DNA of 15,999 bases from Actinomycetota bacterium (GTDB lineage Bacteria; Actinomycetota; Thermoleophilia; Gaiellales; Gaiellaceae). The DNA lies in the NCBI GenBank assembly GCA_013812465.1, contig JACCTK010000300.1:1-15999 (forward strand), written 5' to 3'. Positions within the stretch are counted from its first letter, which is position 1; each line of letters opens with the position of its first letter. The notes under the pieces are model-generated. The model saw only the letters and a program-made list of their open reading frames with translations. It was not told the origin of the DNA and did no database searches. This document shows positions 28 through 15,975 of the stretch, in pieces. A program made the translations under genes and the position numbers.

Positions 28-75
28 GACCAAGTCAGAAGTCAACCGCTTCCCGCTCGTGACGCGCGCGATCCC

Positions 76-94
76 TTGTAACAGACTGTTGCAA
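76..94. promoter_or_regulatory. Operator-like palindrome upstream of the first glycosyltransferase
   Basis: The 19 bases ttgtaacagactgttgcaa form an 8-3-8 inverted repeat: TTGTAACA and TGTTGCAA pair with one mismatch around a 3-base centre (84-86). It is unusually AT-rich for this DNA and lies about 25 bases before the TACGCT -10 box at 119, covering the -35 zone. That is where a dimeric repressor or activator of the glycan operon would bind. The regulator is unknown; binding is inferred from symmetry and position only. Confidence 0.45.
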
Positions 95-118
95 GAGGTT
101 CTGCTTGCGACCGTGCCC

Positions 119-124
119 TACGCT
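119..124 (+). promoter_or_regulatory. -10 box (TACGCT) for a leaderless transcript of the first glycosyltransferase
   Basis: TACGCT fits TANNNT and ends 7 bases before the GTG at 132, so transcription would begin at or next to the start codon. No convincing -35 hexamer is visible at 16-18 bases; the palindrome at 76-94 occupies the region just upstream. The same geometry recurs at 3754, 5843, 8914 and 15964. Confidence 0.5.
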
Positions 125-131
125 TTCGCCG

Positions 132-1382
132 GTGAAGGTCCTCCTCGTGACGCTCTACTTCCCGCCCGCGGGCGGCGGCGGCGTGCAGCGGCCGCTGAAG
201 CTCGCGCAGTACCTGCCGGCGCTCGGGATCGAGACGCACGTGCTCGCTCCGGACGACCCGAAGTGGGTGCACCGGGATCCCGACCTGCGCGTCCCGACGC
301 AGGCCTGGATTCACCGCATCCGCTACGTCGGGCCGAGGGCGCGGAAGCCCACCGAGGAGCTCGCCGCCCAGGATGGGTTTAGCCGCGCGCTGCTGCAGGC
401 GCAGATCACCGCTCGCCGCCTGCTCCTCCCCGACGCGAGCGTGACCTGGAATCTCACCGCGGTCCCAGCTGCGATCAGGATCGTGCGTCGTGAGGGGATC
501 GACGCGGTCTTGACGACGTCCCCGCCCGGCTCGATTCACCTCGTCGGCGCCGCCGTCAAGCAGGCGACCGGCGCCCGCTGGCTCGCGGATCTTCGCGATC
601 CGCTCGTCGCGAACCAGCACCGGCGGGCTGACACCACCGCGACTCGCGCGCGACAGGCCGCGAACGAGCAGCTAGCACGCCTCGTCGCCCGCCAAGCGGA
701 TGCGATCTCGTGCGTCTCGGAGGCGATCGCCGAGGAGGTGCGAGGGCTCGAGCCGCGCGGGATCGTCCGCACCATCTCGAACGGGTGCGACTTCGACGAC
801 TTCGCGGGGCTCGACTACCGTCCCGCGCCGCGCTTCCGGATCACGCACGCCGGGAGCTTCTTCGGGAGGCGCGACCCACGCCCGTTCCTGCAGGCTCTGA
901 AGGACTCGGGTGTCGACGCCGTCGCGCGCTTCGTCGGCGACTTCCGCAGCTCCGATCGTGAATGGGCCGAGTCGCTCGCATTGGGCCACCGGCTCGAGCT
1001 GATTCCTTACGCGCCTCGCGCTGAGTCGCTCCGCCTTCAGCGGGACTCGGAGGCATTGCTCTTGCTCGTGCCGGACGCGGGCGGCAGGGGCAAGGGCGTG
1101 CTGTCTGGAAAAGTGTTCGAGTACCTCGCCGCCGGGAGGCCCATACTCGCGGTCGTGCCTCCCGACGGCGCGGCCGCCGACCTCATCAGAGAGACAGGAG
1201 CAGGAGTCGTGGTCGCTCCAGACGACATCGGAGGAATCAGCGAAGCATTGCTAGACCTGCATGCGCGGTTCGTCAACGGCGGCCTGCCTGCGACCGAGCT
1301 CTCCGAGGACGACCGCGAGCGACTGTCCCGCCAGGCTCGTGTCGAGGAGACGGCCGACCTGCTCCGGGAGATCGTCCTCTGA
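132..1382 (+). CDS. GT4-like (GT-B fold) glycosyltransferase
   Basis: A 416-residue cytoplasmic or membrane-associated sugar transferase, probably acting on a lipid-linked glycan. It opens with beta-strand KVLLVTLYFPPAGGGG (residues 2-17), a glycine-rich loop typical of the N-terminal GT-B domain. LADLRDP (151-157), HAGSFFGRRDP (239-249) and the C-terminal donor-binding stretch GKVFEYLAAGRPILA (326-340) follow a GT4 subfamily common in capsule and O-antigen clusters. The GTG at 132 is chosen because the protein then begins directly at the first beta-strand and a TANNNT box lies 7 bases upstream; a TTG at 105 would add nine residues unlike the family. The final TGA overlaps the proposed CTG start of the next gene. 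Donor and acceptor sugars cannot be read from the sequence. Confidence 0.93.
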   Translation: MKVLLVTLYFPPAGGGGVQRPLKLAQYLPALGIETHVLAPDDPKWVHRDPDLRVPTQAWIHRIRYVGPRARKPTEELAAQDGFSRALLQAQITARRLLLPDASVTWNLTAVPAAIRIVRREGIDAVLTTSPPGSIHLVGAAVKQATGARWLADLRDPLVANQHRRADTTATRARQAANEQLARLVARQADAISCVSEAIAEEVRGLEPRGIVRTISNGCDFDDFAGLDYRPAPRFRITHAGSFFGRRDPRPFLQALKDSGVDAVARFVGDFRSSDREWAESLALGHRLELIPYAPRAESLRLQRDSEALLLLVPDAGGRGKGVLSGKVFEYLAAGRPILAVVPPDGAAADLIRETGAGVVVAPDDIGGISEALLDLHARFVNGGLPATELSEDDRERLSRQARVEETADLLREIVL

Positions 1383-2755
1383 CCGCGCACGCGCTTCCAC
1401 TCCGGACGAGAGCCCGCGAGCGCGTTCTCGCACAGCCCGTTCTCGACGGGCTCTTCCTCGCAACCGTGCTCACGGTCACGTTCCACAAGCTGCAGTGGGA
1501 GCTCGCCGGCTCGCTCACGCTCTCGGATGTTCTCACCTCGGTCTTCCTCGTCGTCTTCTGCTGGGACCGGCTGGAACATGGCGATACGCGGCTCACGCGC
1601 ACCGCGCTCGTGGCGCTCGGGTTCCTGCTCGCCTTCGCGCTCGTCTACCTCGCCGGCTTCTACGCGCTCGACACCGCCCAGTCGCTCGCGCAGTGGGCGA
1701 AGGGCATGGTCAAGTTCGTGCTCCACTTCGGATTCCTGGTCACAGGAGTCGCGCTCCTAGCGCGGCGCTCGCTCGACTTCTACTGGCTGGCCCTAGCTGC
1801 GTTCTGCGGCGGCATCGCGTTGAACGCTCTCTACGGCGTGATCCAGCTCGGGCTCGCCGAGGTCGTCGGAGCGAACCTCGACGCGGCGCTGATCGAGCCG
1901 ATCACCTCTCGCCAGACGGGAATCAACGTCTTCGGGGCGGTCGGCGGCACCCAGGAGGTCTTCCGCCCGAACGCGCTGACCGGCGATCCGAACCACCTCG
2001 GGATCGAGCTCGTGATCCCGCTGCTCGTTCTCACGCCCCTCTATCTCAGGCTCGAGACCGGTCATCGCCTGCGCACGCCGCTTGCTCTGTTGCTCGTCTT
2101 TCTTCTCGTCGTCGAGCTCGCCACCCTTTCTCGAAGCGGGCTCCTCGGCCTCGGCTGCGGCGCGCTCGTACTCGCTCTCCCGTACCGCCGACACTTCCGG
2201 CGGCCGGCGTTTCTCGTTCCGCTCGGCGCTGTCGTGGCGTTGGTGGCGGCGGTGATCGTCGCACGACTCGACTTCTTCCTCACCGTGCTCCGCGCCCGCA
2301 CGAACACGAGCTCGGCGGCCGCGTCTCCCCACTTCGAGGTGTACGGCTTCGTTCCCGACGTGCTCTCGTCGAACCCGGTGCTCGGGCTCGGGCTGAACAA
2401 CTTCGCGGTCTACTACGAGTTCGTCACCGGCCGGCCCGACTTCGGTCCGCACTCGTTCTACGTCGCCACCCTCGTCGAGACGGGGGTCGTGGGGGCCGCG
2501 CTCTTCGCCGTGTTCGTCATCTGGATCTTCCGGCGGCTCGGAGCCGCGCGTCGGCTCGGGCGTGCTCTGACCGCGATCGGGGACCCGCTCGCCGCGCGCG
2601 TTCGTCCTCTGGCCTGGGGGATGACCGCCGCGCTGGTCGCGACTCTCGTCGCGAATCTCTTCTACCTGACGATGACCTTCTACTACTTCTACGTGTTCGC
2701 GGCGCTCGCGGTGGCGCTGCCCGCGGTCTTCGGGCGGGCCGCGCGGGCGCCTTGA
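1379..2755 (+). CDS. O-antigen ligase/polymerase-like membrane protein (Wzy_C/WaaL type)
   Basis: A hydrophobic protein with about ten or more membrane helices and a large outer loop, as in O-antigen ligases and Wzy polymerases, which polymerise polyprenyl-linked glycans or transfer them to an acceptor outside the membrane. Supporting signatures are FRPNALTGDPNHLGIEL (about residue 195-211) and GLGLNNF followed by PHSFYVATLVETGVVG (about 355-371); the histidine of PHS sits where the family has its key loop histidine. The only conventional start is GTG at 1466 (429 residues), but it falls inside the first hydrophobic segment. The frame stays open with coding-like composition back to a CTG at 1379, which overlaps the preceding TGA as CTGA, the 4-base junction used by most genes here. 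I therefore place the start at 1379 (458 residues) as inference. The last bases overlap the next start as TTGA. Ligase and polymerase cannot be told apart from sequence. Confidence 0.88.
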   Translation: MTAHALPLRTRARERVLAQPVLDGLFLATVLTVTFHKLQWELAGSLTLSDVLTSVFLVVFCWDRLEHGDTRLTRTALVALGFLLAFALVYLAGFYALDTAQSLAQWAKGMVKFVLHFGFLVTGVALLARRSLDFYWLALAAFCGGIALNALYGVIQLGLAEVVGANLDAALIEPITSRQTGINVFGAVGGTQEVFRPNALTGDPNHLGIELVIPLLVLTPLYLRLETGHRLRTPLALLLVFLLVVELATLSRSGLLGLGCGALVLALPYRRHFRRPAFLVPLGAVVALVAAVIVARLDFFLTVLRARTNTSSAAASPHFEVYGFVPDVLSSNPVLGLGLNNFAVYYEFVTGRPDFGPHSFYVATLVETGVVGAALFAVFVIWIFRRLGAARRLGRALTAIGDPLAARVRPLAWGMTAALVATLVANLFYLTMTFYYFYVFAALAVALPAVFGRAARAP

Positions 2756-3756
2756 GAGTCACGGTTCTGACGACGTCGTATCCGCGCCACGCGGACGACT
2801 TCGCCGGACTCTTCGTGCGGGATGCGGTCTTCCATCTACGAGACGCCGGCCTCGAGATCGCCGTCGTCTCACCGGCCTCGTTCCGGCACTTCGGGCTCGC
2901 CTACGGGAGCGGAATCGTCGGGAACCTCAAACGAAAACCGTGGCTCTCGCTCGCGCTCCCGCTCTTTCTCCTCTCGTACGCGCGAGCCGCGCGCCGTGCC
3001 TCGCGTGGAGCCGATCTCGTCCATGCGCACTGGCTTCCGTCCGCGCTGCCGGCGCTCGTGACGGGGAGGCCGTTCGTCGTTCAGCTGTGGGGCACCGATG
3101 TGGAGCTGGCAGGTCGTTTCCCGTGGGCGTTTCGCTGGCTCGTGCGGCGCGCCCGGCTCGTGCTCTGCCCCTCGACGGCACTCGCCGAGGCGGCCGGTCG
3201 ACTCGGGGCGCGGGCAATGCGCGTCGTGCCGAGCGGGGTTCAGCTTCCGGAGGAGGTCGCGGATCCAGACGAGCCGCCGCACGTGCTCTTCGTCGGCCGG
3301 CTCTCGGAGGAGAAGGGAATCCTCGATCTGGTCGAGGCGACGGAGGGGCTTCCGCGCGTCATCGTCGGCGACGGCCCTCTCAGAGCCCGCGTTCCGGGCG
3401 CCGTCGGATTTGTACCGCCGAGCTTGCTCGGCGGCTGCTACGAGCGCGCGGCGGTCGTGGCCTGTCCCTCGCACCGAGAGGGATACGGCGTGGCGGCGCG
3501 CGAGGCGATGGCGTACGGGCGACCGGTCGTCGCCGCGGCCGTGGGCGGCCTCGTCGATGCGGTCGAGGACGGCGTCACCGGGCTCTTGGTCTCGCCGCAC
3601 GATCCGGCGGCGTTGCGGGCGGCTCTCGAGCGGCTGCTCGCCGACACCGAGCTCCGCCGCCGTCTCGGCGAGGCGGCGCGTGAGAAGGCGCGAGCGGAGT
3701 TCTCGTGGGACGCCGCGACGAAGGCGACGATCGCCGCCTACCGGGACGCGCAGTAG
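2752..3756 (+). CDS. GT4 family glycosyltransferase
   Basis: A 334-residue GT-B enzyme with a compact N-terminal acceptor domain (RVTVLTTSYPR at 2-12; VHAHW at 90-94; QLWGTDVELAG at 111-121) and a Rossmann-like donor domain containing VGRLSEEKGI (181-190), VGDGPL (205-210) and the retaining-GT4 signature HREGYGVAAREAMAYGRPVV (241-260). In that signature E243 and E251 form the E-x7-E pair that contacts the nucleotide-sugar donor. TTG at 2752 is taken as the start because it gives the exact beta-strand beginning of the family and overlaps the ligase stop as TTGA, implying translational coupling. At 334 residues it is on the short side for GT4 but has both domains. Its TAG stop forms part of the -10 box proposed for the next gene. 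The sugar transferred is unknown. Confidence 0.93.
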   Translation: MRVTVLTTSYPRHADDFAGLFVRDAVFHLRDAGLEIAVVSPASFRHFGLAYGSGIVGNLKRKPWLSLALPLFLLSYARAARRASRGADLVHAHWLPSALPALVTGRPFVVQLWGTDVELAGRFPWAFRWLVRRARLVLCPSTALAEAAGRLGARAMRVVPSGVQLPEEVADPDEPPHVLFVGRLSEEKGILDLVEATEGLPRVIVGDGPLRARVPGAVGFVPPSLLGGCYERAAVVACPSHREGYGVAAREAMAYGRPVVAAAVGGLVDAVEDGVTGLLVSPHDPAALRAALERLLADTELRRRLGEAAREKARAEFSWDAATKATIAAYRDAQ

Positions 3757-3759
3757 CAT
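3754..3759 (+). promoter_or_regulatory. -10 box (TAGCAT) for a leaderless transcript of the NeuB-type gene
   Basis: TAGCAT fits TANNNT and is separated by 7 bases (3760-3766) from the GTG at 3767. Its first three bases are the TAG stop codon of the preceding glycosyltransferase. No Shine-Dalgarno sequence precedes 3767. This suggests an internal promoter at the head of the nonulosonate block, besides any read-through from upstream. No good -35 element is visible. Confidence 0.45.
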
Positions 3760-3766
3760 CTTGGCC

Positions 3767-4867
3767 GTGCCCGAGCTCCACGTGGACGGCCGGCGTATCG
3801 CCGACGACGAGCCCGTGTACGTCATCGCCGAGATCGGCCACAACCATCAAGGGGACGTGGAGAAGGCCAAGGCCCTGATCCATGCCGCCAAGGAGTGCGG
3901 AGTCGACGCGGTCAAGCTCCAGAAACGCGACAACCACTCGCTCTACACACGGGCCCTGTACGACTCGCCCTACGACAACGAGCACTCCTTCGGCGCGACC
4001 TACGGCGAGCACCGAGAGGCGCTCGAGCTGGGCGCGGCGGAGTGGCTCGAATTGCGTGAGTTCTCGCGGGAAGAGGGGGTGACGCTCTTCGGAACCGTCT
4101 TCGACGCGCCGAGCGCCGACCTCCTGGCCGAGCTGGACGTGCCTGCGCTCAAGATCGCGTCGGCCGACCTCGTCAACACCCCGCTGCTCCGGCATGTGGC
4201 CGCGCTCGGCAAGCCGATCTTCCTGTCCACGGGAGGCGGGACGCTCGAGGACGTCGAGCGTGCTCTCGACACCGTGCTTCCGGTCAATCCGCACGTCTGC
4301 CTCATGCAGTGCACGGCGGCGTATCCGTGTGAGACGGACGAGCTGCACCTGCGGGTCATCGAGACGTACCGCGCGCGTTTTCCCGATGTCGTCGTGGGGC
4401 TCTCCGACCACCAGAACGGAATCGCGATGGCCCTCGTCGCGTACATGCTCGGCGCCCGGGTGGTCGAGAAGCACTTCACGCTGAACCACGCGTGGAAGGG
4501 ATCCGACCACGCCTACTCGCTGATGCCGGAGGGCATGCGCCGGCTCGTGCGCGACTTGAACCGCGTCCCCGAAGCGCTGGGCGACGGGGTGAAGCGCCCG
4601 CTGCCGAGCGAGGAGCGGCCGCTCGAGAAGATGGGCAAGAAGCTCGTAGCTGCGCGCGATCTTCCGGCAGGGCATCTGCTCGTGGCTGGAGACCTCGCGG
4701 CCAGATCGCCCGCCAACGGCGGGCTCCCCCCGTACGAGCTCGACCGGCTGCTCGGGAGGCGCCTGCTGCGAGCGCTCGCGTTCGAGGAGAGCGTCGCGCT
4801 CGAAGATGTCGAGCTCCCCGCCGAGCTCGCAGCCGAGCTCGCCGCGGGCAGCTCTCAACGCGCGTGA
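3767..4867 (+). CDS. neuB: NeuB/SpsE-family nonulosonic acid (sialic-acid-like) synthase
   Basis: This 366-residue cytoplasmic enzyme should condense phosphoenolpyruvate with a six-carbon sugar to give a nine-carbon 3-deoxy-2-keto acid. The NeuB barrel is clear: VIAEIGHNHQGD (19-30, with the catalytic-site glutamate E22), KLQKRDNHSLY (50-60), the DNEHSFGATYGEHREALE region (70-87), CTAAYP (182-187), GLSDHQNG (211-218) and VVEKHFTLNHAWKGSDHAYS (232-251). H215 and H236 match the metal-binding histidines of meningococcal NeuB. A C-terminal SAF/antifreeze-like domain follows (GKKLVAARDLPAGHLL at 290-305, then LLGRRLLRALAFEE). The SAF loop usually reads R-P-G-x-G; here it is RSPANGGLPP (313-322), so the arginine is kept but spacing is altered. 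GTG 3767 is preferred over TTG 3761 because of the -10 spacing. The C-terminus overlaps the next start as GTGA. The family is certain; the substrate (ManNAc, mannose, or a modified sugar) is not. Confidence 0.95.
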   Translation: MPELHVDGRRIADDEPVYVIAEIGHNHQGDVEKAKALIHAAKECGVDAVKLQKRDNHSLYTRALYDSPYDNEHSFGATYGEHREALELGAAEWLELREFSREEGVTLFGTVFDAPSADLLAELDVPALKIASADLVNTPLLRHVAALGKPIFLSTGGGTLEDVERALDTVLPVNPHVCLMQCTAAYPCETDELHLRVIETYRARFPDVVVGLSDHQNGIAMALVAYMLGARVVEKHFTLNHAWKGSDHAYSLMPEGMRRLVRDLNRVPEALGDGVKRPLPSEERPLEKMGKKLVAARDLPAGHLLVAGDLAARSPANGGLPPYELDRLLGRRLLRALAFEESVALEDVELPAELAAELAAGSSQRA

Positions 4868-5652
4868 CGGCGGATCCCCTTTTCGACCTGTCGGGGCGAG
4901 TCGCCGTCGTCACCGGAGGAATGGGCCAGCTCGGCGCGATCTACACCGCGGGTCTCGCCGAGCGCGGCGCGCGCGTGGCGAGCCTCGACCTCGTCTCGGG
5001 CGACACGCCCGAGGGCGTCCGGGCGTTCGCCTGCGACGTCACGGATCGCACGGCGATCGAGGGGACGCTGGCAGAGATCCAGGCCGACTGGGGGACGCCG
5101 CACCTGCTCGTCAACAACGCCGGGCTCGACTCCCCGCCGGACGCGCCCGTCGAGGAGGTGGGGCCGTTCGAGAGCTATCCGGAAGCCTCTTTCGATGCGG
5201 TCATCGACGTCAACGTGAAGGGCGCGTTCCTCTGCTGCCAGGTGATCGGGGGTGCGATGGCCCGCGAGGGGCGCGGCTCCATCGTCAACGTCTCGTCGAT
5301 CTACGGGCTCCTCTCGCCCGTTCAGGATCTCTACGCCTTCCGCCGCGCGCGCGGTGAGACCTTCGTGAAGCCGGTGGCGTACTCGGTCTCGAAGTCCGCC
5401 GTGCTCAATCTCACCCGCTACCTCGCCACATACTGGGCGGCCGCGGGAGTGCGCGTGAACACGCTGACCCTCGCCGGCGTGTGGAACGACCAGCCGCCGG
5501 AGTTCTTGGAGGCGTACTCGGCGCGTACGCCGATGGGTCGCATGCTCCGCGCCGAGGAAGCGCTAGGCGCCGTCGTCTTCCTCGCCGCGGACGCCTCCTC
5601 GTACGTCACCGGCTCGAACGTCGTCGTCGATGGCGGCTGGTCGGCGTGGTGA
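4864..5652 (+). CDS. Short-chain dehydrogenase/reductase (SDR) in the nonulosonate block
   Basis: A 262-residue classical SDR, probably a soluble NAD(P)-dependent oxidoreductase acting on a hydroxyl or keto group of a sugar or sugar acid. It has the dinucleotide-binding TGGMGQLG (17-24), an acidic residue after the second strand (SLDLV, D42) that favours NAD(H), the NNAG motif (84-87), the catalytic serine in VNVSSIYG (141-148) and the catalytic YSVSK (173-177). The C-terminal VTGSNVVVDGGWSAW is typical of the gluconate-5-dehydrogenase/3-oxoacyl-reductase branch. The inserted stretch between SSIYG and the active tyrosine (about residues 149-171) is longer than usual and may shape the substrate pocket. 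The GTG start overlaps the NeuB stop as GTGA, so the two are probably made together. It may install or reverse a keto group on the nonulosonate or its precursor; that role is inferred from neighbours only. Confidence 0.93.
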   Translation: MTADPLFDLSGRVAVVTGGMGQLGAIYTAGLAERGARVASLDLVSGDTPEGVRAFACDVTDRTAIEGTLAEIQADWGTPHLLVNNAGLDSPPDAPVEEVGPFESYPEASFDAVIDVNVKGAFLCCQVIGGAMAREGRGSIVNVSSIYGLLSPVQDLYAFRRARGETFVKPVAYSVSKSAVLNLTRYLATYWAAAGVRVNTLTLAGVWNDQPPEFLEAYSARTPMGRMLRAEEALGAVVFLAADASSYVTGSNVVVDGGWSAW

Positions 5653-5712
5653 GGGCGGGAACGGCCACGTCTCAGCCTCAGGAGCTAGAACGAGCGGCTC
5701 GGAGCTCGAGAC

Positions 5713-5769
5713 ATGGCACAAACGGCCGTTGACCGCACCGCGCGGTCGCTGGCGAAGATCCGGGTCTGA
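5713..5769 (+). CDS. Possible 18-residue small ORF in the SDR-ALDH gap
   Basis: The gap 5653-5856 contains no recognisable gene. It does hold an ATG at 5713 followed by 18 codons (MAQTAVDRTARSLAKIRV) and a TGA at 5767-5769, with a GGAG sequence (5701-5704) 8 bases upstream of the ATG, unusual in a region where ribosome sites are absent. It could be a leader peptide or small protein of the ALDH transcript, or chance. An imperfect hairpin (gaccgc...gcggtc, 5731-5747) and a short palindrome gggtctgaccc (5763-5773) lie within or next to it. Confidence 0.2.
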   Translation: MAQTAVDRTARSLAKIRV

Positions 5770-5842
5770 CCCTGGCCGTGTCCGAAACAGGCGGCTGAAA
5801 CGTGCCGAATGTGTGCCAATTCATCCACAGTCGAGCGGGGGA

Positions 5843-5848
5843 TACTCT
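5843..5848 (+). promoter_or_regulatory. -10 box (TACTCT) for a leaderless aldehyde dehydrogenase transcript
   Basis: TACTCT fits TANNNT, ends 8 bases before the GTG at 5857, and has a weak -35-like TTCATC at 5820-5825 with a 17-base spacer. It lies at the end of the only sizeable gap of the + strand cluster (5653-5856), as expected for a second transcription unit covering ALDH to the GT-C-like gene. Confidence 0.5.
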
Positions 5849-5856
5849 CGCCGACG

Positions 5857-7280
5857 GTGATTGGCGCGGAGATTCCGAACCTGATCGCGGGCCGAAGAGC
5901 GGCGGCGGCCTCCGGTGAGTGGCTCGAGAAGCTCCGCCCAGCCGATGGCACACGGCTCTGCCGGCTGGCACGCTCCGACGCAGAAGATGTCGGCGCAGCG
6001 GTGGCAGCTGCAAGGGCAGCCCAGCCCGCATGGGCTGAGCACACGCCGGTAGAGCGTGGCGAGATCGTGCGGGAGCTCGCCCTGCTGCTCCGCGAGCGTC
6101 GCGGCGAGGCGGCCGAGATCGTCATCGAAGAGACGGGGAAGCCGCTCGAGCTCGCGCTCGGAGAAGCCGACGCCGCCGTCGAGATGGGCCTCTTCGTCGC
6201 CGGAGAAGGACGACGCTCCTACGGACGCACCACGACGGCGAGCATGAGGCATCGAACAGTTCTGACGATGCGCCAGCCGCTCGGTGTCGCCGGATTGGTC
6301 ATGAGCTTCAACACGCCACTTCCCAACATCGCCTGGAAAGCGTTTCCCGCGATCTTCTGCGGCAACGCGGCGGTCATGAAACCCTCCGAGGAGGTTCCGG
6401 CATCCGCGCTCTTCTTGCCGAGCTGGCGCACGAGGCGGGACTTCCGGCGGGCGTGCTGAACGTCGTCCAGGGGCTGGGAGCAGAAGCAGGCGCCGCGCTC
6501 GTCGAGCACGAGGACGTCGATCTCGTCAGCTTCACGGGTTCCGCTGCCACCGGACGCTGGATCAACGAGACCGCGGGTCGGCGTCTCGCCAAGGTGTGCC
6601 TCGAGCTCGGTGGGAAGAACGCGCTCGTCGTCTGCGACGACGCCGACCTCGAGAATGCCACCCGCTGGGCGCTCGCCTCGGCGTTCTCGAACGCGGGCCA
6701 GCGCTGCGCCGCGGCCAGCCGGATCGTCGTCTTCGACGCTGTCTACGACGCCTTCCGGGACCTGCTCGTGGACCGGTCCCGCGACTTGGAGCCCGAGCCG
6801 GTCATCAGCGAAGCGGCTCGCGAGCGAATGCTGGCGGCGATCGAGCGAGCCGTTGCAAGCGGCGCCAGCAAGTTGACGGGTGGCGAGCGCGCCGACGGGC
6901 CAGGCTTCCACCTCTCGCCGACGGTCCTCGAAGGCGCGTCGCCCGCCGACGAGATCTCGCGCACCGAGCTCTTCGGCCCGGTCACGCTCCTCTACCGCGT
7001 CTCGAGCCTCGACGAGGCGATCGCGCTCGTGAACGACTCCCCCTACGGCCTCACCGCCGCGATCCACACCGCGAGCCTGCACCGGGCGATGCGTTTCGCG
7101 GAGAAGGCGCAGGCCGGGGTGATCGTGGTCAACGGCGGGACGCACGGTTCGGAGCCGCACATGGGCTTCGGCGGCGTCAAGGACTCGGGAACCGGGTGGC
7201 GCGAGGCAGGGATCGAGGCTCTGGACGTGTATTCCGACTGGAAGATCGTGAACCTGATCGCCGATCCAGCCCTGACATGA
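5857..7280 (+). pseudogene. Aldehyde dehydrogenase (ALDH superfamily) interrupted by one frameshift
   Basis: Two adjoining frames together make one full ALDH, an NAD(P)-dependent enzyme that oxidises an aldehyde to a carboxylate. Frame 1 from GTG 5857 carries IPNLIAGRRAAAASGEWLEK, the AVMKPSEEVPASALF cofactor-binding lysine motif and FNTPLPN; it ends at TGA 6457-6459. From about 6414 the homology moves to the frame ending at 7280, giving LAELAHEAGLPAGVLNVVQG, SFTGSAATGR, the general-base glutamate in CLELGGKN, the catalytic cysteine in NAGQRCAAASR, and TELFGPV. Restoring one base gives exactly 474 residues, the usual ALDH size, with all catalytic residues. So the gene was recently intact, or the defect is a sequencing or assembly error. 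A GTG at 6453 could start the C-terminal 275 residues alone, but that piece would lack most of the cofactor-binding fold. ATG 5809 is an alternative start; 5857 is favoured by the -10 box. The stop overlaps the next ATG as ATGA. Confidence 0.88.
6409..6420 (+). other. Frameshift site in the aldehyde dehydrogenase
   Basis: The frame changes at ctcttcttgccg. The expected family sequence A-L-F-L-A-E-L would need one extra base here, for example ttc-ctt-gcc instead of ttc-ttg-ccg. The simplest explanation is a one-base loss near 6414-6415. There is no long homopolymer and no X-XXY-YYZ slippery heptamer, so programmed -1 frameshifting is unlikely. Confidence 0.8.
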
Positions 7281-8170
7281 CGAGAACCGTCGCCATTCTC
7301 GGGCCCGGAGCGGTCGGTGGAACCTTCGCCGTACGGCTCTCCCAGGCTCACTACCGCACGATCTGCGTGGGGACACCGGAGATCGTCGGGCTGATGGCGC
7401 TCTCCGGGATCACGCTCGACTCGAACGGCGCCAAGCCGCTGAATGTGCGGCCCATGATGGTCGAGCGGCTCGTCGAGCCGGTGGCTCTCCTGGTCGTGGC
7501 CGTGAAGGCGCCGTACCTCGCCGACGCGCTCGAGCGCATCGAGCCGGAAGCCGTCGAGCGCGGCGTCGTGCTGCCGCTCTTGAACGGGCTCGAGCATGTG
7601 GAGATCATCCGAGCGCGCTTCCCAGGACGGGTCGCGGCGGCGAGCCTGTCGCAGTTCGAGGCCTACCGCGTCGGGCGCATGCAGATAGTCCAGGGCACGC
7701 CCTCGGGGGTCGTGACGATGGCGTCGGACGACCTTTCCGCCCAGGAGCTCGAGCGCGCGGCCGACATTCTCCGCTCGGCGGGGATGCAGGTCGAGCTCGA
7801 GGACGACGAGAAGCGCGTGCTGTGGCGGAAGGCAGCACGGGCGGCGGTCGTGTCCAGCGCGACGGCGCTGTCGAGAAAATCCGTCGGTGAGCTGCGCACG
7901 GACCTCGAGTGGCGCCCCCGGATGGAGCAGGCGCTCGCCGAGGCGTGCGCCGTCGCCACCGCCGACGGTGTCAAGATGATGCCCTCGGCCCAGTGGACCC
8001 GAATCGTGGAGATGGATCCGCACTTGACGACCTCCGCGGCACGTGACGTCGTTGCCGGCAAGCGCCACGAGCTCGACGCGATCGCCGGGAGCGTTGTTCG
8101 CGCCGGGCAGCGGCTCGGCATCCCCTGCCCAGTGCTTTCCAGGCTCGTCGCCGAAGCCGACGCGTTGTGA
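7277..8170 (+). CDS. Ketopantoate reductase-like (PanE/ApbA-family) 2-oxoacid reductase
   Basis: A 297-residue NAD(P)-dependent reductase with a Rossmann N-terminal domain (ILGPGAVGG, 7-15), the conserved VKAPY lysine (K77), LLNGLEH (101-107) and a helical C-terminal domain with VLWRKAARAA (181-190) and GKRHELDAIAG (261-271). K185 and E265 correspond to the catalytic lysine and the conserved glutamate of E. coli PanE. The two asparagines that follow the lysine in E. coli PanE are replaced: A189 at the first and S193 at the second. The usual SSM.QD stretch reads TTSAARD. These changes argue that it does not make pantoate but reduces another 2-keto acid or sugar acid. Its position between ALDH and the CMP-sugar synthetase, with 4-base overlaps on both sides (ATGA, GTGA), points to a role in nonulosonate making or tailoring. 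The reaction is inferred. Confidence 0.88.
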   Translation: MTRTVAILGPGAVGGTFAVRLSQAHYRTICVGTPEIVGLMALSGITLDSNGAKPLNVRPMMVERLVEPVALLVVAVKAPYLADALERIEPEAVERGVVLPLLNGLEHVEIIRARFPGRVAAASLSQFEAYRVGRMQIVQGTPSGVVTMASDDLSAQELERAADILRSAGMQVELEDDEKRVLWRKAARAAVVSSATALSRKSVGELRTDLEWRPRMEQALAEACAVATADGVKMMPSAQWTRIVEMDPHLTTSAARDVVAGKRHELDAIAGSVVRAGQRLGIPCPVLSRLVAEADAL

Positions 8171-8931
8171 GCTCGCCGGAGACCCCGGTCGCGGTCGCGT
8201 TCGTCCCGGCCAGATCGGGCTCCGAGCGGGTTCCAGGGAAGAACGTCCGCCCGCTTGCGGGCCATCCTCTGCTCGCGTACGCGATCGAGACCGCCCTGCA
8301 GAGCGGGCTCTTTACGCGCGTGGTCGTCTCCACCGACTCCGAGGAGATCGCCGAGATCGCCCGCTGGTACGGCGCGGAGGCGCCATTCCTGCGCCCGGCT
8401 GAGTATGCGACCGCGACGTCCCCGGATATCGAGTGGCTCACGTTCACCCTCGATCGGCTCGGCGAGCAGTACGACCTCTTCGCGATCGTGCGCGCGACCA
8501 ATCCCTTCCGCGGGCCGGGCGTGGTGCGGCGCGGACTCGACCAGCTGGTTGCGACACCGGAGGCGGATTCGCTCCGGGCGGTCGAGCGCGTGAAACAACA
8601 TCCGGGGAAGACGTGGGTGCTGGCGGAGGACGGTCGCACGATGACTCCGCTCCTCGACCAGTCGCATCTGGACGTGGCCTGGCACGCGGGCCAGTATCAG
8701 GCGCTGCCGGCGGTGTACGTGCAGTCGAGCGCGCTCGAGATCGCGTGGACGCGCGTCGTCTCGGAGACCGGGACACGAGAGGGGCGGGTCGTGGCGCCGT
8801 TCTTCACCGACGGCTACGAGGGCTTCAACGTGGACGACGAGGAGGACTGGGAGCGCGCCGAGCGTCTGCTCGAATCCGGGTCGGCGTCGGTGCCCGCGGT
8901 CGGCCGCGCGTCGTATTCTCACCCGGAATGA
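8167..8931 (+). CDS. neuA: CMP-nonulosonate (acylneuraminate-type) cytidylyltransferase
   Basis: This 254-residue NeuA/SpsF-type enzyme should activate the NeuB product with CTP to a CMP-sugar donor, in the cytoplasm. It carries the CTP-binding loop FVPARSGSERVPGKN (12-26), VVVSTDSEEIAEIA (52-65), the GAEAPFLRP stretch (69-77) common to the family, RATNPFR (109-115) and a C-terminal DGYEGFNVDDEEDWERAE (215-232), whose acidic residues match the metal/sugar-binding end of the family. GTG 8167 overlaps the preceding stop as GTGA and places the nucleotide loop at the usual distance from the N-terminus. Neuraminate, legionaminate, pseudaminate and Kdn enzymes cannot be separated by eye. Its TGA overlaps the next ATG; the -10 box for that gene lies in its last codons. 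Confidence 0.94.
   Translation: MSSPETPVAVAFVPARSGSERVPGKNVRPLAGHPLLAYAIETALQSGLFTRVVVSTDSEEIAEIARWYGAEAPFLRPAEYATATSPDIEWLTFTLDRLGEQYDLFAIVRATNPFRGPGVVRRGLDQLVATPEADSLRAVERVKQHPGKTWVLAEDGRTMTPLLDQSHLDVAWHAGQYQALPAVYVQSSALEIAWTRVVSETGTREGRVVAPFFTDGYEGFNVDDEEDWERAERLLESGSASVPAVGRASYSHPE
8914..8919 (+). promoter_or_regulatory. -10 box (TATTCT) for a leaderless enolase-superfamily transcript
   Basis: TATTCT fits TANNNT, is the most canonical of the boxes seen here, and ends 8 bases before the ATG at 8928. It lies inside the last codons of the cytidylyltransferase gene. An internal start would let the dehydratase and the GT-C-like gene be expressed apart from the upstream genes. No strong -35 is seen. 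Confidence 0.4.
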
Positions 8932-10097
8932 AGGTCGCCAGCCTCGAGACGCTCTTCTGCGACGCCGGCTGGCGTCCGTGGATATTCCTCAAGGCCACGA
9001 CCGAGGACGGGCTCGTCGGCTGGGCGGAGGTCACGGACTCGCACGGCTCGCCGCGCGGGCTCGCGGGTATCGTCGAAGATCTCGCGCCGGTCGTCGTCGG
9101 GCGCGATCCACGGGCCGGCGAGCGGCTCTACTGGGATCTCTATCGCCACACGCGGCAGAGTCCTGGATCGGTCATCGCGAAGGCGATCGCAGGTGTCGAG
9201 AACGCCCTCCTCGACATCAAAGCGAAGGCGCTCGACGTTCCCGTGTACGAGCTCTTCGGCGGGCCGACGCGCGAGACGATCCCGCTCTACTGGTCGCACT
9301 GCGGGACGACGAGGGCGCGCGCCTGGGAGGTGACAGGCGCCACGAAGCTCGCGTCGTACGAGGACGTTGCGGCGCTCGGGCGGGAGGTCGTCGGGAGCGG
9401 GTATCGCGCGTTCAAGACGAACGTCGTCGTCCCGGGCGAGGAGCCGCAAGTGCTGATGCCCGGTTTCGGCGAAGGCGGCGGAACCCAGCACGCCGAGGAG
9501 ATCGCCGAGACGCTCGTCCGTCTGCTGGAGGCGTTTCGGGAGGGAACGGTCGACGCGGCCCGTCCGATCGTCGACCTCAACTTCAACCTGGAGCCCGAAG
9601 GTGTCGTGCGGGTGGCGCGCGCGCTCGAGCCGTTCGACCTGCTCTGGCTCGAGGTCGATCTCTTCGACCCGGCGGCGCTCGCACACGTGCGACACGTGGC
9701 GCCGATGCCGATCTGCTCCGGCGAGAACCTCTACGGCAGCCGCGGCTTCAGGCCCTTCCTCGAGGCAGGCGGGATGGACGTCGCGTCGGTGGACGTGATC
9801 TGGAACGGGTTCCACCAAGCCAAGAAGATCGCCGACCTCGCGGAGACGTTCGAGGTCAACTGCGCCCCGCACAACTACTACTCGCACCTGGCCACGTTCA
9901 TCGCCGCGCAGTGGTGCGCCGCGATCCCGAACGCGCGCATTCTCGAGCTCGACGTCGACGACGTCCCGTGGCGAGACGAGCTCGTCACCGCCGTTCCCGA
10001 GATCTCTGACGGCGAGCTGCGCGTGCCCGCGGGCCCGGGGTGGGGGGTCGAAGTGCGAGAGGACGTGCTGCTGGCACATCCCTGGCCGAAACTGTGA
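8928..10097 (+). CDS. Enolase-superfamily acid-sugar dehydratase (mandelate racemase/MLE subgroup)
   Basis: A 389-residue enzyme of the enolase superfamily, most like sugar-acid dehydratases, which remove water from an aldonate or uronate through an Mg-stabilised enolate to give a 2-keto-3-deoxy acid. The N-terminal capping domain includes GLVGWAEVTD (28-37) and the helix GVENALLDIKAKALDVPVYE (89-108). In the barrel the expected residues are present: K163 (AFKTNV), metal ligands D216 (IVDLNFN), E242 (LWLEVDL) and E266 (CSGENLYG), and a D289 (SVDVIW) plus H315 (CAPHNYYSH) pair matching the His-Asp dyad of the mandelate racemase/galactonate dehydratase type. The usual glycine pair after the dyad aspartate is replaced by WNGF. 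Such an enzyme is not part of any standard sialic acid route, so its overlap with the CMP-sugar synthetase (ATGA) is notable. Substrate unknown. Confidence 0.92.
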   Translation: MKVASLETLFCDAGWRPWIFLKATTEDGLVGWAEVTDSHGSPRGLAGIVEDLAPVVVGRDPRAGERLYWDLYRHTRQSPGSVIAKAIAGVENALLDIKAKALDVPVYELFGGPTRETIPLYWSHCGTTRARAWEVTGATKLASYEDVAALGREVVGSGYRAFKTNVVVPGEEPQVLMPGFGEGGGTQHAEEIAETLVRLLEAFREGTVDAARPIVDLNFNLEPEGVVRVARALEPFDLLWLEVDLFDPAALAHVRHVAPMPICSGENLYGSRGFRPFLEAGGMDVASVDVIWNGFHQAKKIADLAETFEVNCAPHNYYSHLATFIAAQWCAAIPNARILELDVDDVPWRDELVTAVPEISDGELRVPAGPGWGVEVREDVLLAHPWPKL

Positions 10098-11956
10098 GCT
10101 TCGGGCGGCGAGCGGGCGTCGCGGGGACTTCCCTCCTGGCTCTCGACCTCGTCATTCGGCTCCTCGCCCGGGGCCCGTATCCGGGCGCCACGGTGCTCCT
10201 GCTCGCCGCCTGCGGGATCTCGCTCGTTCCGTTCCTGCCGAGGGAGGTCCGCTCGCCGTCGCTTCGCCTCGCCGTCCTACCGGCCCTGGCCCTAGGGTCG
10301 TTCGCGATCCTGCTGACCTCGGTTTCGATCGTGGGCATTCCGCTCACCGAGCTCTCGATCCGGCTTGCCGCGCTGATGCTCGTGGTGGCGCTCGCGGCCG
10401 CAGCCTTTGTGCTGCGACGCCGCGAGCCGAGCGCGCCCGCGCCCCCACGGTCGGTGAGGACGGAAAGCATCGCGATCGCGGTGCTCGTCGGGATCCTCGC
10501 GTTCTCGCTCGGGTCCTCATGGGATATCGCGGGCTCGTATCCGCCCCGGGGAACGGACTGGGGGCACTACCTGCTGTACGCGGACGAGGTCGAGTCGCAG
10601 AACCGCCTCTTGATCGACGATCCGCTCGCAGGGGAGGAAGACCGCGTCTTCGCCGATCCGGCGGCGGTCGGCGCCGTGTACGGAAGCTTCCGGATTCTGG
10701 ACGGAATCTCGTCCCGGCCGCTCGCCTCCGGGGTCGTCGTCGCCTCGGCCCTCACCCCGCTCAGCGTCTATGTAGCGGTCGGCGCGCTGTGGGGGATCGG
10801 CGCGGGGCTGCTCGCGGCAGCGGCCTATGCGGTCTCGCCGATCCGGCTCGAGCCGATGTACTGGCATGGGCTGGCGACGACGATCGCGCTCGTCTTCTTC
10901 CCGCTGATCGTGCTCGCGCTCGGCCTCATGTATCGCGGGCGTGGGGATGTCCGCACGATCGCGCTCCTCGGCTTCTCTCTGGCCGCGGTGGCCGTGTCGC
11001 ACTCGACGAGCGCGGGCGTCGCGGCCCTGCTGATCGGGGTTGTCGTGACGGTCGAGCTCGTCCGCTGGCTCCGCGCGCGCCGGGCTGCGGGTGAGCAGGA
11101 GGTGAAGGGAGCGCTGCGTCCGGTCCTCGCGGGCGTCGGCCTTGCCTTCGTGCTCGGAGCGGGAGTGATCGCACACCTGCGGCTGCAGTCGGCCGAGCTC
11201 GGCTCACCCGTCAGCTATCGCCTCTTCGAGCCGGACTGGCTGAATCTCCGGACGCTCGTCGACTACTACTCGTGGCCGTTCCTCGCTCTGGCCGCGCTGA
11301 GCGTCCTCTTGCTGCTCGCAAGCGGCCGCCTGCGCCGGGACCGCGCCCTCCTCGCCCTCGCCGCGCTCGGCCTCGCGAGCATTCTCGTCGGCCAGCTCTG
11401 GCGCATCCACGTGCCCTACGAGTATCGGCGGGCGGTCTACTACCTCGGCGTCGCGCTCGTGATGCTGATCGGGGCGGCGTCGCTCAAGCTGCCCCGCACA
11501 GCGGCCTGGATCGCCGGATACGTCCTGGTGCTCGCGTACATCGCTCACTCCTCGATCGGCCTTCGCCTTCCCGAGCGCCTTCTCACCGGCGATCAGGAGA
11601 AGTCTGCGGCGGTGGAGGCGCTCATCGAGCTCCGGGGCGAGCTCGACAGCGGTCGGCAGCCCAACGCCCGTCTCGTCGTCGCCGACAGCTGCCTGCACTT
11701 CGTCGTGCCCTATCTCCTGCGGAGCCCGACTATCGCCGCGTTCGAGGACTGGCAGGTGGGCTTCTCCAATCGGGTTCCGCTCGCCCGCAAGGCCGTTGCC
11801 GTCCTCCAGGGAGGGCCCGAGGGCAGACGTCTCGCGGAGTCGATGGGAGTCGATTACGTCGTGCTCGACCCTCGGTGCACCGAGGAGCCCGATCTCGGCG
11901 GCACAGTGGTGGCGCGAAACGACGTCGTCACCATCATCCGGCTCGCTTCGGCGTGA
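10094..11956 (+). CDS. Large multispanning membrane protein, GT-C glycosyltransferase-like
   Basis: A 620-residue integral membrane protein with roughly a dozen hydrophobic helices and a soluble C-terminal part of about 125 residues (from about LPERLLTGDQ). After three or four N-terminal helices comes SYPPRGTDWGHYLLYADEVE (148-167), where a conserved-looking aspartate D155 sits in a loop, as in the first outer loop of GT-C enzymes that use polyprenyl-phosphate sugars. Paired features such as YEYRRAVYYLGVAL and the C-terminal GVDYVVLDPRC also resemble large membrane proteins of unknown function in polysaccharide clusters. GTG 10094 overlaps the dehydratase stop as GTGA; an earlier GTG at 10040 would add 18 polar residues. 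It is the last gene of the + strand operon and overlaps the convergent gene by 23 bases. GT-C assignment is tentative; it may transfer a sugar or flip a lipid-linked intermediate. Confidence 0.8.
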   Translation: MSFGRRAGVAGTSLLALDLVIRLLARGPYPGATVLLLAACGISLVPFLPREVRSPSLRLAVLPALALGSFAILLTSVSIVGIPLTELSIRLAALMLVVALAAAAFVLRRREPSAPAPPRSVRTESIAIAVLVGILAFSLGSSWDIAGSYPPRGTDWGHYLLYADEVESQNRLLIDDPLAGEEDRVFADPAAVGAVYGSFRILDGISSRPLASGVVVASALTPLSVYVAVGALWGIGAGLLAAAAYAVSPIRLEPMYWHGLATTIALVFFPLIVLALGLMYRGRGDVRTIALLGFSLAAVAVSHSTSAGVAALLIGVVVTVELVRWLRARRAAGEQEVKGALRPVLAGVGLAFVLGAGVIAHLRLQSAELGSPVSYRLFEPDWLNLRTLVDYYSWPFLALAALSVLLLLASGRLRRDRALLALAALGLASILVGQLWRIHVPYEYRRAVYYLGVALVMLIGAASLKLPRTAAWIAGYVLVLAYIAHSSIGLRLPERLLTGDQEKSAAVEALIELRGELDSGRQPNARLVVADSCLHFVVPYLLRSPTIAAFEDWQVGFSNRVPLARKAVAVLQGGPEGRRLAESMGVDYVVLDPRCTEEPDLGGTVVARNDVVTIIRLASA

Positions 11957-14048
11957 TCGCCTCGTAGCTCTCGGCGACGAGCTCGAGCGATCGGTCGATC
12001 CGGAGCGTCGATGCGTTGTCGGCGAACCAGCGGGCAGTCGACCTTCGGAGAGCCAGGCCCGCCTCGACCACGCTCTCGAGCGCGAGAGCGAGCACCTCGG
12101 GCGTCGCGTCGGGCGATACGAAACCGTTGACGCCGTCCTCCACGAGCTCAGTCGCGGCATTCTCCGGGCCGGCGACCACCACGCTCGGTGTGCCGTGCGC
12201 GGCCGCCTCGACCACAACCAGACCGTAGCCCTCGCGCTCCGACGCGGTGACGAGGCAGGCGGCGCGCGCGATCGCCTCTGCGACCTCCCCCTCCGGTCGC
12301 CTGCCGAGAAGGCGAACGGATGCTGTCAGCCCGAGAGCGTCGACGAGCTTCGAGATGTGCGGTCGTTCGGGTCCATCACCGTAGAGCCGCAGGTGGAGGT
12401 CGGGCCGGCGGACTCGGGCAAGCGCGAAGGCGCGAACGAGCGTATCGACCCGCTTCTCGCGGACGTGGCGGCCGGCGTAGACGACGAGCGCCGGGTCGAC
12501 GCCGCTTGCCGGAGTCGGCTCGACCGGCCCCGCATAGAGACCCGGCAGGAGCACCGGAGTGCCGGAGTACCCGGCGGCTCGGAGCCTCTCGGAATGCAGC
12601 CGCGAGAAGCAGAAGGCCGTGTGCGGCATGAGCACGCAGGCCTGCTGCACGTAGAACCCGGACATCCCGATCAGCACTCCCGCGTATCGGCGCCAGTACT
12701 CCCTCGTCCACACCTCGATCCAGTTCACGACCAGCTCGTACCTGCGCGCCCTGCCAATCGCGCTCGCCGCCAGCAGCGGGAAGTAGGGAAAGGACGCCAT
12801 GTGGACGATGTCGTACTCCGACCCGTGTCGCCAGAGGTGGCGCGCCACTGCCAGCCCGAAGCGGACCGGAGGCATCAGCGTCCGCCGCTCCCGTCGATAT
12901 ACCCGGCCCGCCGGAGTGAGCCCGAGCACGCGCACGCCGGTCAGATTCGGAAGCTCAGTCTCGTCCCAGTGACGCATCGTCACGTACGTCACCTCATGCC
13001 CGGTCGCGGCGACGTGGAGCGCGAGATCACGCATCCACCGCTCGGCGCCGCCGACGGTCTGCGGGAAGAGATGGTCGTAGACGAGGCAGATCCGTGGCTT
13101 CGAGGACTTCTGGGACCGGCCGGCCGAGCCCCCCTCGTCCCAGTGGCTCGGCAGTCCGGAGAGCCGTCTCTTGACCGGAACCGGGATTCGCTTGTGGCGC
13201 AATCCCAGCTGCAAGCCGGCGAACTTGGCGGACTCGTACACGGCGGCGTAGGGCAGCCAGCGGCGACGCCCGGTGCGCCAGAGCCAGGCGATCTCGCCGA
13301 GCGCGTACCGAAAGCCGGCGTCGCGAAGCGCTAATCGAGACGAGGACGCTTCGCTCACGTACGCGCGGTCGGCCGACACGCCCGAGTCGAAGAAGCGCCG
13401 AAACGCGCCAACGACCGTGTAGGCGTGGGAGTGCCGGACCGCGGCGCGGGGCTCGTAGACGATCTCCAGCCCCGCCAGCAGGACGCGTCTCGACCACTCC
13501 TGGTCCTCGCTCATGATCACGTCCGCCGCGAGCGGGTAGCGCTCGAGCACCGCGCGCGACACGGCCGAGTTCACGTTCGAGAAGAGCGTCGTCTCGAAGC
13601 TGAGCCGGTCGGGGTCGCGGAGGCGCTGCCTGCGAGGCTCCGGCCCGTACAGGAAGTCGAGGAAGTACCGCTCAGACGGGATTGCCTCCTGATGTGGGAG
13701 CTGACGGCCGTAGACGCCTGCGACAGCCGCGTCAGCGCGGAGTGGGGCGACGAGCGTGGCGAGCCAATGCTCGTCCACGGCGTACGCGTCCTGGGAGGTG
13801 AAGACGACGATGTCGCCGCGAGCGAGATCGGCGCCGAGATTGCGGGCGCCTCCGTGGGTGAACTCCTCGGGAAGGATCTCGTGAACGCGTGCTCCCAACC
13901 CGAGCGCTCGCTCGGCGCTTCCGTCACTGGAGCCCGAGTCCACGACCACGACCTCGACCTCCTCGTCCACGTGCTGCCGCGCGACGGCCTGCAGGCAGCG
14001 GACGAGATCGAGGCCTCCGTCCTTGACCGGAATGACGACGGAGATCAT
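11934..14048 (-). CDS. Bifunctional glycosyltransferase: GT2 (GT-A) fused to GT4 (GT-B)
   Basis: A 704-residue protein with two complete glycosyltransferase modules. Residues 1 to about 300 are a GT2 enzyme: ISVVIPVKDGG (2-12), VVVVDSGSSDGS (33-44), EEFTHGGARN (61-70), which resembles the rhamnosyltransferase-type E-F-x-H-G-G-x-R-N motif, FTSQDA (83-88) with D87 as metal-site acid, and MSEDQEWSRR (179-188) as the likely base region. After a polar linker (about 301-318) a GT4 module begins with KPRICLVYDHLFPQTVGGAE (317-336) and contains YAGRHVREKRVD (524-535), LYGDGPER (555-562) and EREGYGLVVVEAAAHG (604-619), with E606 and E614 as the E-x7-E pair. No stop or shift separates the halves. ATG 14048 is chosen because it begins the first beta-strand and overlaps the methyltransferase stop as ATGA; the open frame to 14423 is only a shadow of that gene. 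It probably adds two sugars in sequence to one lipid-linked acceptor. Confidence 0.92.
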   Translation of the reverse strand: MISVVIPVKDGGLDLVRCLQAVARQHVDEEVEVVVVDSGSSDGSAERALGLGARVHEILPEEFTHGGARNLGADLARGDIVVFTSQDAYAVDEHWLATLVAPLRADAAVAGVYGRQLPHQEAIPSERYFLDFLYGPEPRRQRLRDPDRLSFETTLFSNVNSAVSRAVLERYPLAADVIMSEDQEWSRRVLLAGLEIVYEPRAAVRHSHAYTVVGAFRRFFDSGVSADRAYVSEASSSRLALRDAGFRYALGEIAWLWRTGRRRWLPYAAVYESAKFAGLQLGLRHKRIPVPVKRRLSGLPSHWDEGGSAGRSQKSSKPRICLVYDHLFPQTVGGAERWMRDLALHVAATGHEVTYVTMRHWDETELPNLTGVRVLGLTPAGRVYRRERRTLMPPVRFGLAVARHLWRHGSEYDIVHMASFPYFPLLAASAIGRARRYELVVNWIEVWTREYWRRYAGVLIGMSGFYVQQACVLMPHTAFCFSRLHSERLRAAGYSGTPVLLPGLYAGPVEPTPASGVDPALVVYAGRHVREKRVDTLVRAFALARVRRPDLHLRLYGDGPERPHISKLVDALGLTASVRLLGRRPEGEVAEAIARAACLVTASEREGYGLVVVEAAAHGTPSVVVAGPENAATELVEDGVNGFVSPDATPEVLALALESVVEAGLALRRSTARWFADNASTLRIDRSLELVAESYEAITPKRAG
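11955..11992. terminator. Possible hairpin at the convergent operon junction
   Basis: Just past the + strand stop, gatcgc (11955-11960) pairs with gcgatc (11987-11992) and, inside it, ctcgt (11961-11965) pairs with acgag (11977-11981), leaving a 5-base bulge. There is no T-tract on either side and it lies inside the C-terminal codons of the opposite gene, so terminator function is only a guess from position. Confidence 0.2.
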
Positions 14049-14704: not shown

Positions 14705-14717
14705 GAGCGCGTCGCCC

Positions 14718-15860: not shown

Positions 15861-15877
15861 CGGGAAAAGCGCCGCCG

Positions 15878-15969: not shown

Positions 15970-15975
15970 GGCGCG

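Follow-up and report, generated by a model that had tools for sequence, protein, structure and literature searches.

A conserved gene block joining NeuB and NeuA homologues to sugar-acid enzymes in Gaiellaceae: a candidate pathway to a CMP-activated 3-deoxy-2-ulosonic acid

The closest described routes to ulosonic acids activated with cytidine monophosphate (CMP) are the sialic acid pathway (NeuC-NeuB-NeuA), the pseudaminic and legionaminic acid pathways, and the Kdn and Kdo pathways, in which an aldose phosphate and phosphoenolpyruvate (PEP), a HAD phosphatase and a CMP transferase take part. For the NeuB of Neisseria meningitidis, passages of PMC6795526 report that the contacts of Arg314 with ManNAc might place the N-acetyl group, and hence the aldehyde group, and that the R314A mutant is inactive while R314K is active. 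Here we analyze a block of six genes at positions 3767-10097 of contig JACCTK010000300.1 (assembly GCA_013812465.1, Gaiellaceae), whose positions 1 to 15,999 constitute the window of this study. In the block, homologues of NeuB and NeuA stand among enzymes of sugar-acid chemistry. The block is a conserved, co-inherited set whose linkage is far beyond chance, and we give about even credence to the proposal that it encodes the greater part of a dedicated pathway that supplies a surface polysaccharide with a CMP-activated 3-deoxy-2-ulosonic acid. The open-access literature searched, outside which most subscription papers lie, contained no paper describing this gene set; in passages of PMC12342839, transketolase and nonulosonic acid genes are treated apart from each other, in unrelated contexts.

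Conservation and co-inheritance of the gene block

Profile searches (Pfam and NCBIfam) of 14 reading frames of the window place all genes of the block on the forward strand. The order is a NeuB-family, PEP-condensing ulosonate synthase with a SAF domain (3767-4867, starting with GTG at 3767; PF03102, 8.1e-74), a short-chain dehydrogenase/reductase (SDR; 4864-5652), an aldehyde dehydrogenase (ALDH, Aldedh) in two pieces (5809-6459 and 6453-7280), a ketopantoate-reductase-like (KPR-like) enzyme of the ApbA/PanE family (7277-8170), a NeuA/PseF-like CMP-ulosonate cytidylyltransferase (CTP_transf_3, 8167-8931; PF02348, 1.4e-20) and a dehydratase-like enzyme of the enolase superfamily (MR_MLE, 8928-10097), called here the enolase. 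The SDR comes closest to the profiles for gluconate 5-dehydrogenase, SDR and D-mannonate oxidoreductase, scoring well under the cut-off of each, and has a weak match (24.8 bits) to the broad Pfam model 'Epimerase'. A preliminary description of the stretch had placed the NeuB, SDR, KPR-like, NeuA and enolase-superfamily genes at these positions, and the Pfam matches bear this out. It described the genes as mostly joined by 4-base overlaps, and such overlaps are present at four of the five junctions (NeuB/SDR, ALDH/KPR, KPR/NeuA and NeuA/enolase); SDR and ALDH do not overlap, being separated by a gap of about 0.16-0.2 kb.

To analyze conservation of the block, two peptide patterns of the enolase were run against 84,980 species genomes; the best 80 of 88 relatives were kept and their loci were checked by tblastn. 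For some loci a home-made gene caller was used, which gave some false high-GC frames. Matches to NeuA, NeuB, KPR, transketolase or ALDH queries were found in 26 of the best 80 enolase loci and, leaving out a locus that matches ALDH only (L025), 25 loci were counted. Among them KPR occurs in 23, NeuA in 22, ALDH in 20, transketolase in 17, NeuB in 10, SDR in nine and the HAD phosphatase in five, all these numbers being minima since many loci are cut by contig ends. The 25 loci include L001 to L018, with enolases of at least 69% identity and titles that are actinobacterial except for L017 ('uncultured bacterium'), and further L019 and loci from Hadesarchaea (L020 and L049), Sungiibacteriota (L021), Giovannonibacteria (L023), Desulfobacteraceae (L047) and an alphaproteobacterium (L075). 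The gene order is rearranged in some of the distant loci (L019, L020). In public assemblies all 120 enolase relatives listed are at least 84% identical, and their stated sources are Actinobacteria/Actinomycetota, Gaiellaceae or soil metagenome. No relative of the enolase was found among viral contigs; 15 phage records matched it with at most 29.4% identity where most of the query was covered, and among the plasmid matches listed the identity was 47.0% or lower. The enolases of L060, L061, L036 and L025, which stand alone, have mixed neighbours as read by eye.

Co-inheritance was analyzed in an even sample of 99 genomes from the class to which one of the locus genomes (G002) belongs. NeuB is found at E<=1e-40 in 23 of them, and in six of the 23 it scores above 560 bits, that is, belongs to the NeuB type of the block. 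The enolase (E<=1e-120) is present in exactly these six genomes and in none of the 17 having other NeuBs only. Four of the six carry both genes on a single contig, 12 kb apart in G001 and 5-7 kb apart in G002, G005 and G007. In the other two (G014 and G016) they are on separate contigs, with the SDR on the NeuB contig and the enolase locus starting inside ALDH, in accord with a broken assembly near ALDH. The same six genomes have a transketolase of at least 988 bits, encoded on the strand of the enolase and less than 5 kb from it; four other genomes of the class have weaker transketolase matches (372-521 bits), at most 12 candidates per genome having been scored. One partial transketolase of this type (G091:C31:2309-3655, 521 bits) lies in a genome without this NeuB or the enolase. 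The chance of the six-of-six match would be 1/C(99,6) = 8.9e-10, a value that is nominal because related genomes are not independent; hence, the distant recurrences weigh more for linkage. The block had been proposed to form one pathway, which agrees with the genes shared by 25 of the 80 loci and with this co-occurrence, and the ALDH, KPR and dehydratase genes, whose lack of conservation with neuB and neuA would have counted against that proposal, are indeed conserved with them. A catabolic sugar-acid operon was also considered for the block and was ruled out by the linkage to NeuB and NeuA.

Glycosyltransferases, a Wzy_C protein and a methyltransferase surround the block, so that it likely serves a surface polysaccharide. 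The scan of the window also covered a membrane protein. This protein (10094-11956, forward strand) is hydrophobic by eye and has no family match in Pfam or NCBIfam; its GTG start at 10094 and the enolase stop TGA at 10095-10097 overlap by 4 bases. On the reverse strand, a single open frame of 829 amino acids at 11934-14423 carries GT2 and GT4 domains and is a possible fusion.

The synthase, its partners and the precursor genes

The NeuB of the window keeps the residues E25, K53, Q55, K129, S132, S154, Y186, H215, E234, H236 and D247 (N. meningitidis numbering). At position 314 it has Ser instead of Arg, and the 19 cluster NeuBs have either Ser (17) or Cys (two) there. In other NeuBs from the same genomes or class, 22 of which were fetched out of 28 matches, Arg is found in 20, the two exceptions being a divergent pair in a quick tree. 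A sequence signature also distinguishes the two groups: the window NeuB carries AVKLQKRDN, and AVK[LFI]QKR is found in 19/19 cluster NeuBs and in 0/22 of the others. Because Arg314 is replaced by Ser or Cys, the substrate of the synthase is likely an aldose without an N-acyl group and its product a non-N-acylated ulosonate. The product had earlier been proposed to be possibly non-aminated, and a NeuB lacking the arginine that may position the N-acetyl of ManNAc fits this proposal. Together, the NeuB-family synthase and the NeuA-family cytidylyltransferase assign the block to CMP-ulosonate biosynthesis in the wide sense; the N-acyl contact of the Neu5Ac pathway is missing from the window NeuB, and the synthase matches NeuB/SAF with no match to the KdsA family of the Kdo pathway.

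The absence of a NeuC-type epimerase, a 4,6-dehydratase, an aminotransferase and an acetyltransferase from the window had already been reported, and none was found among the 14 frames scanned. Neither was a PseB/LegB dehydratase; LegB, aminotransferases and acetyltransferases were not searched for genome-wide. Among 20 locus genomes of unstated completeness, NeuC is over the cut-off in one (G013) and PseB in two (G011, G012), with neither above cut-off in any genome titled actinobacterial, LegB not being part of that search. A supply of the NeuB substrate by a NeuC or PseB encoded elsewhere was rejected on this ground. A single NeuB is present in thirteen genomes, all titled actinobacterial (G001-G007, G014-G018 and G020); G008-G013 have two to four NeuBs each and G019 has none. 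That the block is a standard cluster for sialic, legionaminic or pseudaminic acid, with its precursor genes located elsewhere, seems to us very improbable. Such a cluster would be in line with the cytidylyltransferase being nearest to the PseF profile, though with 127 bits against a cut-off of 205.7, and with G011 (Desulfobacteraceae), where PseB and two further NeuBs (L184, G011:C26:4500-18500) lie on the contig of the cluster, 7-18 kb before its NeuB. However, none of the three NeuBs near these PseBs (two in L184, one in L186) has Ser or Cys at position 314; the residues there are Arg, Arg and Met.

Further members of the gene set lie outside the window. The full-length transketolase type is matched in 17 of the best 80 enolase loci and present in 18 of the 20 locus genomes, and a KdsC-like HAD phosphatase is found beside NeuB in 13 of 19 NeuB-centred loci, with SDR beside NeuB in 15 of the 19. 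Hence the six genes of the preliminary description lack two conserved partners that it did not name. The catalytic residues of TktA, H26, H66, H100, H261, E411 and H473, are kept in the 12 cluster and viral transketolases aligned, and R358, S385, R520 and D469 are not. R358 and S385 were read from a HMMER alignment to human transketolase and, by eye, from the ADLA motif, since MAFFT misplaced both; the H461 column is uncertain, the cellular enzymes having His one residue on. These residue roles are taken by us as known, with R358, S385 and R520 as the phosphate contacts, and the loss of the latter suggests that the cluster transketolase uses non-phosphorylated partners. The phosphatase of L011 has as its second-best solved-structure match 3e81, deposited as 'acylneuraminate cytidylyltransferase', which we take to be a Kdn-9-phosphate phosphatase. 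Directly after the transketolase of L009 (13053-14399) and L011 (15900-17258) lies a PF04464-like (CDP-glycerol glycerophosphotransferase-like) protein, found also in L021 (7486-8868) and with weak tblastn relatives in further loci; we regard it, by inference only, as a candidate transferase for the ulosonate.

The ALDH of the window is interrupted. Its first piece covers positions 7-172 of the 461-position Aldedh profile and loses the frame before the second half, and its second piece covers positions 186-461 in a different frame; thus, a frameshift lies between the two. The earlier description recognized the ALDH family correctly and overlooked that the gene is not one open frame. The nearest homologues of the pieces, among 120 listed, are full length and 82% (N-terminal piece) and 86% (C-terminal piece) identical. 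The break may be an error of the assembly or a real lesion. A lesion would accord with a cluster in decay, whose pathway would perhaps be inactive or altered in this strain, and so would the absence of a HAD or transketolase match from the window, with no phosphatase and no transketolase beside the enolase, as well as the full length of the L001 ALDH and of the 120 proteins listed nearest to it. We consider decay improbable: the remaining genes are open and preserve their 4-base overlaps, one frameshift alone may stem from faulty assembly, six of the 19 NeuB-centred loci likewise lack the phosphatase beside NeuB, and the close relative G003, the genome of L001, carries the transketolase on another contig (G003:C310), so that its absence from a window of 16 kb means little.

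Part of the set also occurs in viruses. The best 80 of 93 viral loci found with the NeuB alignment contain NeuA in 42 cases, SDR in 22, a cupin in 12, transketolase in seven and HAD in three; enolase, KPR and ALDH were matched in none of the 80. SDR and cupin are mutually exclusive across these loci, and every locus with transketolase also has SDR. In L106 (3213-8826), NeuB, SDR, NeuA, a short transketolase and a methyltransferase are placed between the terminase large subunit and portal genes, and gene sets similar to its NeuB-SDR-NeuA-short transketolase are found in L085/L086, L088, L105, L114 and L117. Position 314 follows the gene content: the 22 SDR-linked viral NeuBs have 16 Ser, three Thr, one Ala, one Asp and one gap, with no Arg, and all 17 viral NeuBs with Arg (14 in a first reading by regular expression) sit in loci without SDR and without cupin. 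The position is gapped in 27 of the 80 rows, ten of them among the 12 cupin-linked ones. The cupin loci without SDR are L083, L091, L093-L095, L097, L100, L107, L108, L112, L115 and L150, and several of their NeuBs are about 310-320 amino acids long, seemingly without the SAF domain. The core thus looks like NeuB/NeuA with either cupin or SDR, with or without transketolase, and the enolase and reductase look like an add-on to it, found with the cupin type too (L075). With these modules the question arises of what use such a sugar is to phages.

These loci bear on a reading in which the product is a Kdn-type, non-aminated CMP-nonulosonate and SDR, ALDH, KPR, enolase and transketolase are merely co-located, serving another sugar of the same polysaccharide. 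The signature of NeuB fits it, as does the match of the L011 phosphatase to 3e81, and in some of the viral loci (cupin in 12 of the 80) such a NeuB, mostly with NeuA, stands beside a cupin instead. Moreover, Kdn polymers occur in Streptomyces walls, as stated in passages of PMC11481543 and PMC7831098. On the other hand, genes serving unrelated sugars are expected to separate more often, and these recur jointly across distant groups, even rearranged (L019, L020). Mere co-location seems to us unlikely.

Proposed pathway and its alternatives

The two enzymes at the end of the proposed chemistry were compared with described homologues. The KPR-like enzyme keeps N98, K176, S244 and E256 of PanE, and both N180 and N184 are replaced in the nine KPR-like enzymes aligned, that of the window included. 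We assume that K176 and E256 are catalytic and that N180 and N184 bind pantoate; with the latter contacts replaced, a pantoate-making ketopantoate reductase was ruled out. In L047 the KPR slot is occupied by a DUF1932/6PGDH-like protein, which supports the succession of an enolase and an acid reductase. The enolase keeps the three metal ligands and the D258-H285 dyad of DgoD. The position of DgoD His185, two residues after the first metal ligand and presumably the general base, is Asn in the window enzyme and in six other cluster enolases aligned, and a DgoD-type galactonate dehydratase was ruled out because this histidine is missing. The nearest solved structure is 2OO6, deposited as a putative L-alanine-DL-glutamate epimerase, a function that we take to be unproven.

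From the linkage and the residue patterns we infer the reactions, their order and the product as follows. Transketolase, SDR and ALDH would assemble and oxidize a sugar-acid part. The enolase-type enzyme would dehydrate it next to the carboxylate, giving a 2-keto-3-deoxy acid, and the KPR-like enzyme would reduce the latter to a 2-hydroxy acid, both steps together resulting in net one deoxygenation. NeuB would condense PEP with an aldose carrying no N-acyl group, perhaps phosphorylated where the phosphatase is present, and NeuA would activate the ulosonate as the CMP sugar. With the carboxylate at the distal terminus, a deoxy ulosaric (two-carboxylate) sugar would result. The order of the steps and the chain length are guesses. 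More tentatively, and with less than even confidence, the CMP-sugar could belong to a class not described before and be made by a route that is new as well, in which a non-phosphorylated chain built by a transketolase without the phosphate contacts is oxidized, dehydrated, reduced and joined to PEP by a non-N-acyl NeuB, yielding a deoxy ulosonic or ulosaric acid without a nucleotide- or amino-sugar precursor; phages would carry a stripped-down NeuB-SDR-NeuA-transketolase version, perhaps decorating virions or the host surface.

Several observations weigh against a dedicated pathway of this kind: (i) 54 of the 80 enolase loci lack NeuA, NeuB, KPR, transketolase and ALDH, so the enolase family serves other uses too; (ii) L021 has only enolase and NeuB of the block genes in a locus of 21 kb, and L075 has no SDR, ALDH or transketolase match; (iii) the ALDH of the window is split, neither transketolase nor HAD phosphatase is matched anywhere in the window, and such a transketolase was not found in G012 and G013 among the 20 locus genomes searched, absences that are weak because most genomes are metagenome-assembled and of unstated completeness; (iv) the Asn at the His185 position is also found in seven of eight solo enolases aligned, hence it is not specific of the cluster, and without the His185 base the dehydratase reaction is not assured; (v) further residues near the substrate are changed in the window NeuB (N74 to Glu, N184 to Ala and F288 to Lys), so that the loss of Arg314 is not the sole change; (vi) the NeuBs of Hadesarchaea and Giovannonibacteria are placed apart from the main clade in the quick tree, and (vii) ALDH would destroy the aldehyde needed by NeuB, so that its target must be another molecule or a different part of the chain.

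In the main rival reading, the enolase and the KPR-like enzyme would make a separate small hydroxy acid (e.g. 3-deoxy-tetronate-like) that is linked either to the ulosonate or to a different sugar, and NeuB and NeuA would make a plain Kdn-like sugar. Both enzymes are adjacent even where SDR, ALDH and transketolase are not found (L075), the KPR-like enzyme keeps its catalytic residues and has lost the pantoate contacts, and a 3-deoxy-aldonate would be natural for the KPR fold, ketopantoate itself being a 2-keto-4-hydroxy acid. 3-Deoxy-glycero-tetronic acid on perosamine is a known acyl group of polysaccharides. However, no acyl-CoA ligase, acyl carrier or acyltransferase was recognized among the 14 frames of the window, and co-inheritance with NeuB is less expected for a separable decoration. 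We regard this rival as having an appreciable but minor chance of being right.

If the dedicated pathway proved true, it would add a CMP-ulosonate pathway starting from plain sugars and sugar acids and not from UDP-GlcNAc, present in uncultured actinobacteria, archaea and candidate phyla, and would provide roles for enzymes now annotated merely as galactonate dehydratase, aldehyde dehydrogenase or transketolase. The Ser or Cys replacing Arg314 of NeuB would serve as a sequence rule to predict non-N-acylated ulosonates.

Comparison with described systems

With the sialic acid pathway the cluster shares condensation with PEP by a NeuB-family enzyme and CMP transfer by a NeuA-family enzyme. It differs in that its genomes titled actinobacterial have no NeuC above cut-off, in the Ser or Cys of its NeuB at Arg314 and in the additional transketolase, ALDH, enolase, KPR and SDR. 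The pseudaminic and legionaminic pathways have in common with it a NeuB/PseI-type synthase and a PseF-like transferase, both under the equivalog cut-offs in the cluster, whereas PseB is not above cut-off in the actinobacterial-titled genomes and no aminotransferase or acetyltransferase was found among the window frames scanned. The resemblance to the Kdn and Kdo pathways lies in the KdsC-like HAD beside the NeuB of relatives and in the likely non-N-acyl substrate. In contrast to these pathways, the cluster synthase is of the NeuB family and not KdsA, the window has no HAD, and it has five further enzymes, which belong to sugar-acid chemistry and ketol transfer.

The single enzymes show the same mixture of likeness and difference. 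The cluster enolase has the family, the metal ligands and the Asp-His dyad in common with DgoD and 2OO6, and unlike DgoD it has Asn at His185, no aldolase or kinase is seen alongside it, and it is linked to NeuB and NeuA. The cluster transketolase shares its catalytic residues with E. coli TktA and differs from it at R358, S385, R520 and D469.

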